DNA of 55,377 nt from Helicobacteraceae bacterium (lineage in GTDB: Bacteria > Campylobacterota > Campylobacteria > Campylobacterales > Sulfurimonadaceae), in assembly GCA_947498025.1 (NCBI GenBank), contig CANMJR010000019.1, positions 1 to 55,377 on the forward strand, in the 5' to 3' direction. The notes beneath the pieces are model-generated. The model was not told the DNA's origin and did not search any database. It saw only the letters and a list, made by a program, of their open reading frames with translations. This document shows, in pieces, positions 13,505 to 17,614 of the stretch; the first letter of the stretch is position 1; each line of letters starts with the position of its first letter. The position numbers and the translations under genes are program-made.

Positions 13505-13748
13505 TATCAATACTCATTTTATAAAAAGCTTCATAATTGCTTGATTTTTTCTGAACCAACTTTACCAAGACAGTAATAAAAATTTTAACTCTTCTTTTGC
13601 AAATTGTGCCCTTAAAAAGTTTCTGTTTATGTATTTTGTGAAGCTCTTTGCTTTTACTTTCAAAGGTTTCGTCTTGCAGCCTCCTCGTTAAAAACTCGGC
13701 GTCAAAAGAGGAGAAGTTCCATCGAGGTTTTTTTAATGAGTTATACAA
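13505..13748 (-). pseudogene. Decayed 3' fragment of a CobD-like aminotransferase gene
   Basis: Minus-strand DNA at about 13611-13735 aligns with 16843-16965 inside the intact CobD-like gene at about 85% identity by eye, encoding 'WNFSSFDAEFLTRRLQDETF' against 'WNLSSFDAEFLTQRLQDETF'. Beyond about 13610 homology continues only in another frame with stops ('NFYY...SEKIKQL' against 'NFFL...ADKIFEHL'), so the fragment is frameshifted and non-functional. Only the part from about codon 214 onward is represented. It sits between cobQ and the plus-strand C39-peptidase operon, consistent with a gene end displaced when that operon arrived. A 92-codon open frame through it (13470-13748) is probably fortuitous. 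Confidence 0.8.
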
Positions 13749-13840: not shown

Positions 13841-13856
13841 AGAGAGAGAGAGAGAG
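13841..13856. repeat. (AG)8 dinucleotide tract upstream of the C39 operon
   Basis: Eight perfect AG units followed by 'atactat'. If TACTAT (13858-13863) is a -10 box, the tract fills the 17-bp spacer to a weak -35 (13835-13840). Dinucleotide tracts in such spacers can vary in length by slippage and switch expression. The role here is inferred. Confidence 0.6.
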
Positions 13857-13869
13857 ATACTATCACTTA

Positions 13870-13893
13870 CATGAATATCTTCGGATATTCATG
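13870..13893 (+). promoter_or_regulatory. UUCG-capped palindromic hairpin in the leader of the C39 operon
   Basis: Perfect 10-bp inverted repeat (13870-13879 with 13884-13893) with a ttcg tetraloop, followed by 'atattattttt' and then the ribosome site GGAG about 8 nt before ATG 13915. It could be an attenuator, an operator or an mRNA-stabilising stem. Confidence 0.65.
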
Positions 13894-13914
13894 ATATTAT
13901 TTTTGGAGTTTTTT

Positions 13915-14283
13915 ATGAAAAAAGGTTTGAGTATATTGGTGGCATCAGCGTTGATGTGTTCTATGGCGTTCGCTTCGCCAACGCTAACAAGTGTTGAACA
14001 AGTGGGTATTACATCATCTGAAATTCAGATGATGCCTGAAAGATTGAATCAAAATGACAGTATGGTTCTTTTTGGTACGGATAAAGTTGAAACCATTGCA
14101 CTTCTTTCTCCGAGTGAGATGATTGACACACAGGGAGCGGGTTGGTTTCAAAGTATAAGAAGTTATTTTTCAAGACCCTCAGTGATATATGGTGTCTTCT
14201 TCTTTACTGCTACAACACTTTTCCCACCTGCAGCAATGGTGTCGATACCTGGCGTTTATTCTGGTGCAATATGGCTATTTTAA
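13915..14283 (+). CDS. Exported precursor with internal double-glycine-type (GA) C39 cleavage motif
   Basis: 122-residue protein of no family known to me. Residues 1-20 are a Sec signal peptide ('MKKGLSILVASALMCSMAFA'). Residues 21-63 form a polar spacer. 'LLSPSEMIDTQGA' (63-75) fits the double-glycine leader pattern of C39-processed peptides: Leu/Ser at -12/-11, Glu/Met at -8/-7 and Gly-Ala at -2/-1; Thr at -4 is atypical. The remaining 47 residues (GWFQSIRS...) are basic at first and then strongly hydrophobic, with aromatic, Gly and Pro residues, like a membrane-active peptide or subunit. I chose ATG 13915 (GGAG upstream) over the longer frame from 13891. It is the first gene of a four-gene plus-strand operon that ends with a C39 peptidase gene. 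Confidence 0.8.
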   Translation: MKKGLSILVASALMCSMAFASPTLTSVEQVGITSSEIQMMPERLNQNDSMVLFGTDKVETIALLSPSEMIDTQGAGWFQSIRSYFSRPSVIYGVFFFTATTLFPPAAMVSIPGVYSGAIWLF

Positions 14284-14304
14284 AAATTGTAAAAGGAGTT
14301 ACTT

Positions 14305-14841
14305 ATGCGTAAAATATTATTATTTGTGCTGTTCACTATAATACTTCAGGCAGATTCGTCAGGACATAAAGGGTTGAATATTGCTTTTGGTATCGGTAGT
14401 GGAGTTATGAAAACGACATATGGCTTAGAAAGTAATAGCGACAATCAATCAGCGGTCTTTCTTACTCGTATAGGGACTGGTATTACAAATAATACTGTAT
14501 TCGTTTTTGAAGCAATTGGCAACTATGGTTCTTTTAACTATACATCATTTGGGAAAAAAGATGTGAGTTATAATTATGATGGTGTTGGAATGAATTATTA
14601 TTTTAATGAGGGTGACACAACTTCTTATATTGGATTCTCTTTTGGTACGGCAGACCATGAGAGTGATCCGAAGTCGTTTGTAAAATCGTCAGGAGTATTT
14701 GGAAATTCCTACAAACTATCGGCAGGTTATGAGTATAACCGATGGTTAGCAGAAGTCAATTATATAAAAGCATCAAGCGAAATTATTAAAACCGATTCCG
14801 TTATATTCGCTATTGGATATAACTTTGCATTATTGCGATAA
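14305..14841 (+). CDS. Small outer-membrane beta-barrel protein
   Basis: 178 residues. It has a signal peptide (about residues 1-16, 'MRKILLFVLFTIILQA') and then alternating amphipathic strands with Gly/aromatic residues ('GLNIAFGIGSGVM', 'GVGMNYYF', 'YIGFSFGTA', 'KLSAGYEYNRWLAEVNYI', 'SVIFAIGYNF'), the pattern of an 8-stranded OmpW/OmpA-like barrel. It ends in 'ALLR' rather than a terminal Phe, which is slightly unusual. It lies 21 bp after the precursor gene and 10 bp before the next barrel gene, so all are probably on one transcript. No named family recognised. An outer-membrane role in export, immunity or anchoring of the processed peptide is inferred. Confidence 0.75.
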   Translation: MRKILLFVLFTIILQADSSGHKGLNIAFGIGSGVMKTTYGLESNSDNQSAVFLTRIGTGITNNTVFVFEAIGNYGSFNYTSFGKKDVSYNYDGVGMNYYFNEGDTTSYIGFSFGTADHESDPKSFVKSSGVFGNSYKLSAGYEYNRWLAEVNYIKASSEIIKTDSVIFAIGYNFALLR

Positions 14842-14851
14842 ATATTTATTG

Positions 14852-15718
14852 ATGCGATTATTGTTTATTGTGGGAATAATCCCCTTATTATTATCCGCCA
14901 AGGCGGTAAAAGTGGATGAAATACTTACTGAAAAAAACCGTATTCAAAGCGATATAAGTATCTCATATCTTAATCTCCAGCGTAACCATGGAGATGTAGG
15001 TCTCGTCCAATATCAAAGTGCAAATGGCGATTATATTACTGTCCCGACTTATATGGGAAGTGCTGAGAGCCAAAGCGATCGATTGCTCTATACTTTGGCA
15101 TTGCGTTACGGTCTGAGTAAGGATTTAGAAGTGTTTGCCTTTGGAAATGTGTACAATTCAACAGAGCACAGCTTAAGTGTTAGCGGTGCAGAGTCTCACC
15201 ATAGCGATGGATTTAATTCATCGGGTGTCGGTGGTGTGTATCAGGTCAGAGGAGAAGATAATTACCCTGCCGTGTTGGTGGGAGGAACGGTCGATTTGAT
15301 TGATTATGATGAAACGCTCAAACAAAATTTTTATCTCAAAAGCGGTTCAGTATTCGTTTCCTCTTACTATACAAGTGACCCTATTGTCTTTTTTATTAAA
15401 GCTTCGTACGGATACAGCAAGAAACGCTCTAATGATAATCATACGCTTGAGATGGGAAACATTGCAAATATTACTCCTCAGATTCATTTTGCGGTGAATC
15501 CTTATACCAGTTTGAATTGGGGTGTGAGGTATCAGTATAAACAAAAAGATGTGTATGACGGTAGTGATGTTTCGATTAATCAAAGTCAACTGAATTGGAT
15601 GTTTGGTACGAGTTATGAAATAAACGCTAAAAGTATTATCAGTGCAGATATGGAGAAAAGCGATACATCAATGTATTCGCAAAGTGCAATCACTTTGAAT
15701 TATTCGTACAAATACTAA
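14852..15718 (+). CDS. Outer-membrane beta-barrel transporter-like protein
   Basis: 288 residues from ATG 14852. A signal peptide ('MRLLFIVGIIPLLLSAKA') is followed by about 260 residues of alternating beta-strand pattern ('SDISISYLNLQRN', 'RLLYTLALRYGLSKDLEVFAFGNVY', 'FFIKASYGYSKK', 'LNWGVRYQYKQK', 'QSAITLNYSYKY'), ending in an aromatic-Lys-Tyr strand. It resembles the broad 'transporter/MetA-pathway' family of 12-strand barrels. A longer frame from 14813 overlaps the previous gene and lacks a signal peptide, so it was rejected. The stop overlaps the start of the C39 peptidase gene by one base (TAATG), implying translational coupling. By position it is the counterpart of FapF, the export barrel encoded with the C39-like FapD in pseudomonad Fap operons; this is an analogy, not a sequence match. 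Confidence 0.78.
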   Translation: MRLLFIVGIIPLLLSAKAVKVDEILTEKNRIQSDISISYLNLQRNHGDVGLVQYQSANGDYITVPTYMGSAESQSDRLLYTLALRYGLSKDLEVFAFGNVYNSTEHSLSVSGAESHHSDGFNSSGVGGVYQVRGEDNYPAVLVGGTVDLIDYDETLKQNFYLKSGSVFVSSYYTSDPIVFFIKASYGYSKKRSNDNHTLEMGNIANITPQIHFAVNPYTSLNWGVRYQYKQKDVYDGSDVSINQSQLNWMFGTSYEINAKSIISADMEKSDTSMYSQSAITLNYSYKY

Positions 15719-16383
15719 TGAAAGTTATATTTTTATTGATTATCTCACTCTCTTTGTGGGGAGGGGTAACTATCGTTCAAAAAGAGTTTATTCTTCATCC
15801 ACCGATAAAATCATGGGTGGAATTCAAAAATAATAGATTGGTTCGGCAGGGGTATGATTATTCGTGTGGCAGTGCGGCATTGGCTACATTACTGAGTCAT
15901 TATTATGATGCCAATGTTTCTGAAGCAATGATTCTAAAAAGTGTATTAGAATCCAAAGGGATTACGAAAGAAGCAACTGCCCTTGAAAACCAAGAAGAAA
16001 ATAACGGGTTATCGTTTTATGATCTCTCACAATACGCCTCAACGCAAGGTTTTAAAGCGGTTGGGATTGCATTGGGAATAGAAGATCTGAAAAAACTTCA
16101 GATTCCCGTCATCGTTTTTGTCAAAATACGGAAGCAGGAACATTTTACAGTACTCAAGAAAATGGACGAACAGTATGCGTATTTAGCTGATCCTTCTTTT
16201 GGTAATATCCGTGTGAGTCATGCGAAATTTAAAGAGATGTTTTTTACCCGTGACGAAGAAGAAAAACCGGGGAAAATACTAGCAGTTTTAGCACAGAGAA
16301 ATATGAAAGGGCGAGAAGAGTTTAAAGCAGTCTTCCCATTTCCTGATAGTATTTATGAAAGGATTAGGAATCCAATGCGTTGA
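15718..16383 (+). CDS. Exported stand-alone C39-family cysteine peptidase
   Basis: 221 residues. Residues 1-16 form a signal peptide or anchor, so the enzyme acts in the periplasm. The C39 fold is evident: oxyanion Gln44 and nucleophile Cys50 in 'RQGYDYSCGSAALATLL', His142 in 'KQEHFTVLKK' and Asp158 in 'YLADPSFG'. The Gln-Cys spacing of 6 and His-Asp spacing of 16 match active C39 peptidases. No ABC-transporter domains are attached, unlike bacteriocin exporters of the PCAT type; the arrangement is closer to FapD-like peptidases. It is translationally coupled to the barrel gene before it. The likely substrate is the GA-motif precursor encoded first in this operon (inference). Confidence 0.88.
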   Translation: MKVIFLLIISLSLWGGVTIVQKEFILHPPIKSWVEFKNNRLVRQGYDYSCGSAALATLLSHYYDANVSEAMILKSVLESKGITKEATALENQEENNGLSFYDLSQYASTQGFKAVGIALGIEDLKKLQIPVIVFVKIRKQEHFTVLKKMDEQYAYLADPSFGNIRVSHAKFKEMFFTRDEEEKPGKILAVLAQRNMKGREEFKAVFPFPDSIYERIRNPMR

Positions 16384-16606: not shown

Positions 16607-17614
16607 TTAGTAAAGTATAGAACCAACCGTTAAAATCTCTGCCAGTCTGTTATGCGTGTTAGTCTCTTTCACCGCAAAGCGGAGATAGCTGTTATCTAAA
16701 AAGTCAAAACTTCTGCATGTTCTCACCAAAATTTTATGTTTCAGAAGATGCTCAAAAATCTTATCTGCTCTCTCTGATTTTGTGAGAAAAAAGTTTGAAT
16801 CGCTTTGGTGTATTTCAGTGAAGAGTTTTGACTCTTCTAAAATCTTAAAAAGCTCCTGTTTATGTCTTTGATGAAGCTCTTGACTTTTGCTCTCAAAGGT
16901 TTCGTCTTGGAGCCTCTGTGTTAAAAACTCAGCGTCAAAAGAGGAGAGATTCCAAAGAGGGGTTTTTAATCTTTCAATATTTGAAAAACCAGAGAAAATC
17001 GCTCCGATTCTTACGCCCGCACATGCATTAAATTTAGAAAATGATTGGATTATATATAGTTTATTATTATAATTGATTTGGTTTCTCAAAGAGATGAGGC
17101 TTTCAAATTCCAAAAAAGATTCATCCAAAATTATTGTGCAATTTTGCTCTCTCCAGATGGAAAAAAGTTTCTCTAAGTTGTAATATTTGCCATCGGGAGT
17201 GGATGGATTTACGAAGACAACTATGGATTCTTTTTTTGGTTTTTCATAGAGATTCTCAAAGCGGTTGATTTTGATTATTTTTTTCTTTTCTTGCTTTGCC
17301 GCTTTTTCATATTCGCCGTAGAGGGGCGCATAGAGGTAAACTCTTTTTTCTTTTAAACTCTTTAAGAGTTCAAAGATAGCAGAAGTTGCCCCGTTGTAAA
17401 GAGCCATCTGCTTTTTTTTGATTTGGTACTTTTTTGCGATGGCTTTTTTTAGCCCAGAGTAGGAGCTGTCGCCGTATTTTACTACCAAGGCATCCGTGAG
17501 CGTTATGCTAATGTCAGGGTTATAGCTGTTTATGTTCGATGAGAAGTCTATGATTTCATCCGCTTCACACCCCAGTTTTTTTGCCACTTTGTATATACCT
17601 GCGCCATGTTTCAT
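16607..17614 (-). CDS. cobD: CobD-like threonine-phosphate decarboxylase (PLP-dependent)
   Basis: PLP enzyme of the histidinol-phosphate aminotransferase fold that makes aminopropanol phosphate from L-threonine phosphate for the nucleotide loop of cobalamin. Hallmarks: 'DFSSNINSYNP' near the N-terminus, 'YNGATSAIFELLKSL', 'VFVNPSTPDGKYY', 'ILDESFLEF' and the PLP lysine in 'SFSKFNACAGVRIGAI'. At 335 residues it is slightly short but complete. In Sulfurospirillum the homologue also accepts serine phosphate (norcobamides), so substrate choice is open. A decayed copy of its 3' part lies at 13505-13748. It was presumably adjacent to cobQ before the C39 operon arrived. Confidence 0.9.
   Translation of the reverse strand: MKHGAGIYKVAKKLGCEADEIIDFSSNINSYNPDISITLTDALVVKYGDSSYSGLKKAIAKKYQIKKKQMALYNGATSAIFELLKSLKEKRVYLYAPLYGEYEKAAKQEKKKIIKINRFENLYEKPKKESIVVFVNPSTPDGKYYNLEKLFSIWREQNCTIILDESFLEFESLISLRNQINYNNKLYIIQSFSKFNACAGVRIGAIFSGFSNIERLKTPLWNLSSFDAEFLTQRLQDETFESKSQELHQRHKQELFKILEESKLFTEIHQSDSNFFLTKSERADKIFEHLLKHKILVRTCRSFDFLDNSYLRFAVKETNTHNRLAEILTVGSILY

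Follow-up and report, generated by a model that had tools for sequence, protein, structure and literature searches.

A probable haemocin-type peptide cassette with an outer-membrane barrel gene at the immunity position in a Helicobacteraceae bacterium

What is the product of an operon that combines a small precursor bearing a signal peptide, two putative outer-membrane barrels and a C39 peptidase, with no ABC transporter among its genes? The question is raised by a locus in a 55,377-nt stretch of Helicobacteraceae bacterium (contig CANMJR010000019.1, GCA_947498025.1), to which we refer as the window. Our analysis suggests that the operon is probably a haemocin-type antibacterial peptide cassette, in which the gene at the immunity position encodes an outer-membrane barrel. 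Open reading frame (ORF) calling on the window places the operon at 13915-16383, with four genes, all on the plus strand; 21 bp and then 10 bp separate the first three, and the last two overlap by one base (TAATG). This is the layout given by a first-pass annotation of the same DNA, except that its start at 13841 lies in an upstream AG repeat, where there is no gene. The genes and their parts are:

13915..14283, plus strand: gene 1, precursor of 122 aa (ORF; ATG start with a GGAG ribosome site)
gene 1, parts: signal peptide ~aa 1-20, leader aa 21-75, hydrophobic cargo aa 76-122 (leader model; end of the signal peptide read by eye)
14140..14280, plus strand: predicted mature cargo of 47 aa, GWFQSIRSYFSRPSV...YSGAIWLF (C39-type site aligned with other leaders)
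14305..14841, plus strand: gene 2, signal peptide and predicted 8-stranded outer-membrane barrel, 178 aa (fold model, Foldseek, position)
14852..15718, plus strand: gene 3, HmcD/FapF-like outer-membrane barrel, candidate export channel, 288 aa from its ATG (family profile)
15718..16383, plus strand: gene 4, stand-alone, predicted periplasmic C39 peptidase, 221 aa (Pfam, catalytic residues)

The longest ORF of gene 1 begins at 13891, upstream of the preferred ATG, and that of gene 3 at TTG 14813. Read by eye, each of the four products starts with what looks like a signal peptide, as the first-pass annotation had stated. In a Pfam scan of the four products only the peptidase found a match (Peptidase_C39, E=9.5e-21), and there is no ABC transporter within the operon, again in line with the earlier description. 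None of the four products matches an ATPase in the family scan, and HmcB, the haemocin ATPase introduced below, was not searched for in the rest of the genome.

Downstream of the signal peptide, gene 1 carries a second leader, of the C39 type (LLSPSEMIDTQGA before and GW after the predicted cut), which ends in LFGTDKVETIALLSPSEMIDTQGA and is followed by the 47-aa hydrophobic cargo. With L at -12, S at -11, E at -8, M at -7 and G at -2, the leader has the spacing of the classical C39 leader consensus. This consensus is quoted as LSX2ELX2IXGG in PMC3897388. A model of 34 other leaders, from which the window was excluded, detected gene 1 among 5019 ORFs with E=2.2e-10 and 38.9 bits; the independence of this model is incomplete, because its 34-leader set was gathered with a model partly seeded by the window leader. 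The predicted GA site is Ala75-Gly76. We saw no repeats on reading the sequence of the 47-aa cargo, which sets it apart from the repeat-bearing amyloids FapB and FapC. Among NCBIfam models, gene 1 weakly matches the JUQZ bacteriocin family (E=0.15); the source organism of JUQZ-1 is given in a literature listing as Brevibacillus.

Gene 4 retains the complete catalytic set, Gln44 (oxyanion), Cys50, His142 and Asp158, as claimed at the outset. In the survey of 397 genomes of the class described below, all 42 window-type peptidases (E<1e-35) have Gln44, His142 and Asp158, and 41 have Cys50. The sole failure is a remnant fused to another gene in genome G161 (locus L141, 7140-7862), in which the catalytic Cys is gone and the front has been replaced by an unrelated membrane-anchored sequence that looks chemoreceptor-like by eye. 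The nearest named NCBIfam families of gene 4 are FapD (NF058616, 98.7 bits) and FilB (NF050078, 80.8 bits); both scores lie far below the respective cut-offs of 330 and 475, and membership of gene 4 in the Fap and Fil families was rejected on these grounds. Since the peptidase is stand-alone with its own signal peptide, and the signal peptide of the precursor precedes the leader, the locus does not conform to the ABC-fused type I or class II microcin arrangement.

The closest described counterpart emerged from a plasmid collection searched with the peptidase, which returned 219 records. One of them is plasmid p250 of Avibacterium paragallinarum (NC_005245.1), annotated with HmcD, a C39 peptidase, an AAA ATPase, a hemocin structural protein and a hemocin immunity protein. 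We presume this to be the operon hmcDCBAI, taking B to be the ATPase and C the C39 protein; its description here follows the annotated p250 record. Against our profiles, HmcD scores 83.6 bits with that of gene 3 and the p250 C39 protein 85.0 bits with that of the peptidase, while HmcA reaches 29.0 bits with the leader model and, with the signal peptide removed, 24.5 bits for the motif part, the highest score among all ORFs of five loci. In both systems the HmcD-like barrel directly precedes the stand-alone C39 peptidase, in the same order, and the signal peptide of the structural peptide is followed by a leader of the same type (..LFxx..VLSQKEMSEVKGG in haemocin). In haemocin the immunity gene directly follows the precursor, a slot that in the window is occupied by gene 2. 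Haemocin is a bacteriocin of Haemophilus influenzae (PMC8873416, PMC10986600). The route sketched in the first-pass annotation, with a Sec-exported precursor bearing a C39-type leader, a periplasmic C39 peptidase and a barrel partner, is thus supported by haemocin and by the family loci, while its remark that it knew of no described system with exactly this gene set is not, because HmcD, the C39 protein and HmcA all match; the nap island combines these parts as well, by description.

Several further plasmid-borne relatives were seen. The 6.3-kb mobilizable Acinetobacter plasmid pTR11_4 (L145, 404-2033) encodes a barrel that is split between the two ends of the record, a 188-aa precursor with a GA leader and a C39 peptidase, beside a toxin-antitoxin pair. 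Campylobacter plasmids represent a related second type: in C. volucris the C39 gene directly follows an HmcD-like gene, and the leaders on C. volucris, C. jejuni and C. concisus plasmids end in canonical GG. Precursors of this type, also found on small plasmids, consist of a signal peptide, a leader of the form ..E(M/L)xxxxGG and a cargo of ~85-160 aa, and lie at:

L095-L097: Campylobacter-type precursors
L147, 5923-6357: Campylobacter-type precursor
L159, 6645-7241: Campylobacter-type precursor
L160, 2659-3294 and 7465-7932: Campylobacter-type precursors

Distant C39 matches occur in 142 Salmonella plasmid records. Among viral contigs 40 pattern matches were obtained, none of which was confirmed, and phage records gave 3 distant matches.

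The window operon is one locus of a large family. We searched the peptidase and leader alignments in all 397 genomes; the peptidase alignment matched 82 of them at E<=1e-10, and 41 contain a window-type peptidase at E<1e-30. The leader search returned 62 genomes at E<=0.001, of which 40 were kept (E<=1e-7, reaching the model end) and 22 dropped, among them G083 and G180, which have a window-type peptidase and leader matches at 3e-5 only. Good leaders and a window-type peptidase occur together in 36 genomes (Fisher p=3e-41, a value that ignores kinship among genomes). As the leader alignment was built from leaders found near peptidases, the comparison was repeated without the 21 genomes that fed the model: leaders are present in 15 of 20 peptidase genomes as against 4 of 356 others (p=2e-19, again ignoring kinship). 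The finding that would have refuted the first-pass annotation, homologues of the peptidase consistently lacking a small motif-bearing gene, was thus not obtained. A gene-3 barrel lies within 700 bp upstream of 41 of the 42 peptidases, several barrels being split into two ORFs, and a precursor lies within 6 kb of 33, on the opposite strand only at L047, L048, L050, L056 and L060. Of the nine peptidases with no precursor nearby, five are cut off by contig ends less than 2 kb upstream (L004, L006, L063, L065, L077), one (L066, in G171) has precursors elsewhere in its genome, and three (L052, L069, L141) lack any. There are up to 7 leader matches per genome, many distant from the export genes; the 102 leader positions listed class-wide include a few weaker than 1e-7. 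Among the matches listed in the open-access literature, we recognised no paper describing this family in Campylobacterota. In G266, from the same genus as the window, L083 (1605-5983) carries four spaced precursors with near-identical leaders ending in DEMKDADGG and Tyr/Ser/Gly-rich cargoes, all weak matches to the model.

Within the family the leaders are conserved and the cargoes variable, and the gene that follows depends on the cargo. We collected 94 leader-bearing ORFs, near-identical rows included, in which the last two leader residues are GE (61), GQ (10), GF (8), GA (6, the type of the window), GK (3), GN (3) and others (3). The GG/GA motif claimed in the first-pass annotation is thus correct for the window itself but not typical of the family, where P1, the last leader residue, is Glu in 61 and Ala in only 6 cases; P2 is Gly in 91 of 94, although the search motif itself demands that Gly. 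Cargoes are 20-58 aa long in 83 of 94, and their mean normalised similarity score (0.10; 87 distinct cargoes) is well below that of the leaders (0.37). Of 13 cargoes with a NAP motif (e.g. LNAPGPNSNTYSG), 12 precede a gene for a small membrane protein, and a 43-aa single-helix membrane ORF sits in the gap of the thirteenth; among the other cargoes the same holds for 5 of 53 (p=1.5e-8), a p-value that is optimistic because the motif was noticed in the very data tested. For this table 3 of the 94 rows were dropped for want of a cargo, 5 for want of a next gene and 3 as duplicate cargoes, leaving 83, of which 10 that precede the core barrel and 7 that precede other genes were kept outside the 2x2 table; two of the five non-NAP rows with a membrane partner actually precede a second precursor.

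Most of the remaining cargoes have a larger exported protein as the next gene product. These larger partners, 45 in number, fall into one family of ~250-aa proteins with signal peptides (41) and a second family (4). Within the ~250-aa family, distances between cargoes correlate with distances between their partners (Mantel r=0.55, n=40, p=0.0002), and the correlation persists when leader distance is partialled out (r=0.52, n=40, p=0.0002); this p-value is the floor of 4999 shuffles, and 40 of the 41 pairs were used, the remaining one having no cargo. Same-genome paralogues exist in 29 cases, and in 20 of these the closest partner belongs to another genome. Class-wide we found 95 partner matches, and a leader lies no more than 700 bp upstream of 50 of them but not of the other 45; these counts are lower bounds, because at most six candidates were scored per genome. 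Three genomes (G135, G371, G385) contain a partner with neither peptidase nor leader at the thresholds used. Orphan partners are what is expected of immunity genes, and the pattern as a whole appears to be the behaviour of bacteriocin and immunity cassettes, short of proof of killing.

The two barrels of the window turned out not to be equivalent. Gene 2 was modelled as an 8-strand barrel (mean pLDDT 74, from a three-sequence alignment), and the top Foldseek matches of this model are Ail, OmpX and OmpW (TM-scores ~0.4-0.6, E down to 9e-7). The fold model of gene 3 is poor (pLDDT 40, three sequences) and unfit for a structure search; here the barrel assignment comes from sequence families: 7 of 14 members of the gene-3 family match OMP_b-brl at E<=0.1, the window's gene 3 itself not being among them, and the best PDB matches of the family profile are four FapF chains from three entries (E 0.007-0.013). 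Gene 3 is the candidate for the conserved exporter, and gene 2 occupies the variable slot behind the precursor, as a candidate immunity gene or cargo partner. For the ~250-aa partner family the term barrel is only inferred, because its profile found no relative in the PDB (best E=0.81) and OMP_b-brl is matched by 2 of 20 members. We considered gene 2 as a clear homologue of this family and rejected it: hhalign gave a probability of 49% over 41 columns, located at the signal peptide.

Gene layout, homologies, association and co-variation are thus directly observed, and they can be assembled into a route that, like the cut site itself, is read from sequence. Gene 1 would be made as a pre-pro-peptide and cross the inner membrane by Sec, as its signal peptide suggests. 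In the periplasm, gene 4 would recognise the second leader (..LxxxEMxxTxG-x) and, judging from the alignment, cut after Ala75, releasing the 47-residue cargo. The freed hydrophobic peptide could then leave through the HmcD/FapF-like barrel of gene 3, which adjoins nearly every window-type peptidase. Outside the cell it would most likely act on competing bacteria, as the homology to haemocin and the behaviour of the cassettes suggest. Gene 2, located at the immunity position of haemocin and presumably matched to the cargo, would most likely serve in self-protection, which is the weakest step of the route.

Several results count against this interpretation. Gene 4 resembles FapD and FilB, which come from systems described as an amyloid and a putative pilus, and the peptidase tree places HmcC on a long and unsure branch rather than beside the window peptidase. 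HmcB has no counterpart in the window operon, and blastp of HmcI, a 118-aa protein with no family match, against the gene-2 proteins and the larger partners gave no relative (best E=1.1). A peptidase or remnant with no leader found occurs in G155, G244 and G161, and leaders with no window-type peptidase occur in G015, G233, G286 and G358. The prevalent Glu at P1 is unusual for C39. The gene-2 family comprises three members here (the window, L044 and L006), so the data on cargo-partner pairing cover other families, and the NAP and co-variation patterns were first noticed in the tables later used to test them. The 95 partner matches include fragments of a single gene, tandem arrangements and matches at the ends of contigs, and the 45 orphans may contain ordinary outer-membrane proteins. 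We know of no outer-membrane barrel that acts as a bacteriocin immunity protein.

The kinship with FapD and FilB, at scores below their cut-offs, together with FapF as the best PDB match of the gene-3 profile, would fit a surface structure of the Fap or Fil kind, in which the cut peptide is the subunit of a fibre, adhesin or coat, passes through the FapF-like barrel and is anchored or nucleated by gene 2; FapD is reported to be periplasmic and needed for secretion of FapC (PMC5557850). We consider this unlikely, given that the cargoes are short and highly diverse, with at least 12 genomes containing 3-7 leader matches, that the partners are matched to the cargo, and that the architecture is shared with a bacteriocin. 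The same parts have been assigned another purpose in gonococci, where the nap island promotes autolysis and no inhibition of the tested strains was seen with the mature Nap peptides (PMC11798529). By analogy, the peptides of our family might strike the population that makes them, the next gene supplying the antidote; the many distinct cargo-partner pairs per genome suit competition better than a single death programme, and we regard this explanation as improbable. Double-glycine leaders also serve signals, and response-regulator-like ORFs were noted, in our own reading, near L045 and L046, so a trimmed pheromone sensed by kin deserves mention. The hydrophobic nature of the cargoes and their link to membrane or exported partners speak against it, as does the absence, in the listed loci, of any recurrent regulator-like gene in the interval from precursor to peptidase (by eye, neighbours not being systematically annotated), and we would give this possibility very little credence. 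An antibacterial peptide cassette of the haemocin type is the interpretation that we prefer for the window operon.

The operon has probably been acquired as a cassette. It splits a run of cobalamin genes, in which CobQ and CbiB meet the NCBIfam cut-offs and a CobC/CobD-like gene scores below the cut-off; a 127-bp piece of the latter is duplicated across the operon flanks with 84% identity. Elsewhere in the genus the three cobalamin genes adjoin one another at 3 of 9 loci (L154, L156, L158); the 1.5-kb flank of the remaining six does not include the CobC/CobD-like gene. The interruption, the duplicated flanks and the contiguity in the sister loci are our reasons for this proposal. The flanking features are:

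13611..13737, minus strand: fragment of a CobC/CobD-like aminotransferase gene, left of the operon (84% identical to 16844-16970)
13841..13856, plus strand: (AG)8 simple repeat upstream of the operon (sequence)
13870..13893, plus strand: 10-pair hairpin upstream of gene 1 (z -2.2; 3 of 200 shuffles as good)
16844..16970, minus strand: counterpart within the intact CobC/CobD-like gene at 16607-17614, on the right side of the operon (sequence comparison)

The repeat and the hairpin are a possible switch or mRNA control element; terminator-like sites in the region number 2, with 1.8 expected. The same genome contains further export genes. A second barrel-peptidase pair with a 160-aa accessory gene lies at the end of contig C48 (L004, 13038-15072), and contig C16 starts with a NAP-type precursor and a small membrane ORF (L104, 155-641); these ends probably adjoin as one broken-up second locus, as suggested by the gene order in G177 (L136). 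A third barrel and C39 pair, on contig C51 (L005, 227-1620), groups with the Campylobacter type; no precursor was seen on that contig end.

What would follow from this interpretation? Periplasmic C39 peptidases have been described as "yet to be characterised", and the target of FapD as unclear (PMC5557850). About ninety natural substrate leaders, with Gly at P2 and a usually acidic P1, make C39 substrate recognition directly testable. The family would also be a source of numerous candidate antibacterial peptides, from Campylobacterota as well as from related small plasmids, and its outer-membrane barrels point to a possible new kind of self-protection. A broader picture, which we offer tentatively and with some doubt, is that Campylobacterota possess a large, hypervariable arsenal of Sec-exported, periplasm-matured bacteriocins, most cassettes being protected by a matched outer-membrane beta-barrel, and that haemocin, Fap, Fil and Nap are branches of a single Sec-C39-barrel route with a G-(E/Q/A/G) site.

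How does the window relate to the known systems? Where class II microcins and bacteriocins are exported by C39-ABC transporters, leader removal takes place in the cytoplasm and is the work of a C39 domain fused to the ABC transporter. The window shares with them the C39 chemistry, the LSxxEMxxxxG-type leader, the small hydrophobic cargo and a cargo-specific next gene, but differs in its predicted Sec signal peptide and in having no ABC transporter in the operon. The Fap system of Pseudomonas likewise combines a periplasmic C39 peptidase (FapD) with the FapF barrel, whereas its cargoes are repeat-bearing amyloids; the target of FapD is given as unknown in PMC5557850. In Acinetobacter Fil, a C39 peptidase lies by barrel-like genes and Sec-exported proteins have a leader ending in ..TGQ (L013 and L014, our own reading), but the substrates are large, ~265-326 aa. 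We presume L013 and L014 to be FilB loci from their organisms and from the match between the window peptidase and FilB. C39 loci with Sec-exported neighbours, some with leaders ending in (G/A)Q, were seen in Acidobacteria, Smithella and Acinetobacter/Moraxellaceae, and these leader ends may reveal a substrate rule of periplasmic C39 enzymes:

L009, 5178-5645: C39 locus of this kind
L010, 2096-2578: C39 locus of this kind
L013, 4680-5639: C39 locus of this kind
L014, 1849-5638: C39 locus of this kind

By its description in PMC11798529, the gonococcal nap island (NapABC, NapP, NapF, NapI) resembles the window: several small peptides with GG leaders accompany a stand-alone C39 peptidase, a channel related to FapF and an immunity-like gene. 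That paper reports the Naps to be synthesised in the cytoplasm and to act in autolysis, suggests a holin-like protein for passage of the inner membrane, and contains neither "signal peptide" nor "Sec" in its main text. A gonococcal stretch among our loci (L146) was considered as the nap island and rejected, its neighbours marking another C39 locus. Haemocin, finally, differs from the window in its AAA ATPase HmcB, canonical GG site, Cys-rich cargo, soluble-looking immunity protein and export-first gene order. The window operon lacks an ATPase gene, its predicted cut lies at a GA site, and its immunity slot is taken by a gene for an outer-membrane barrel. As judged from these comparisons, the window system is a variant of the haemocin kind, set apart by the ATPase-free operon and by the barrel at the immunity position.

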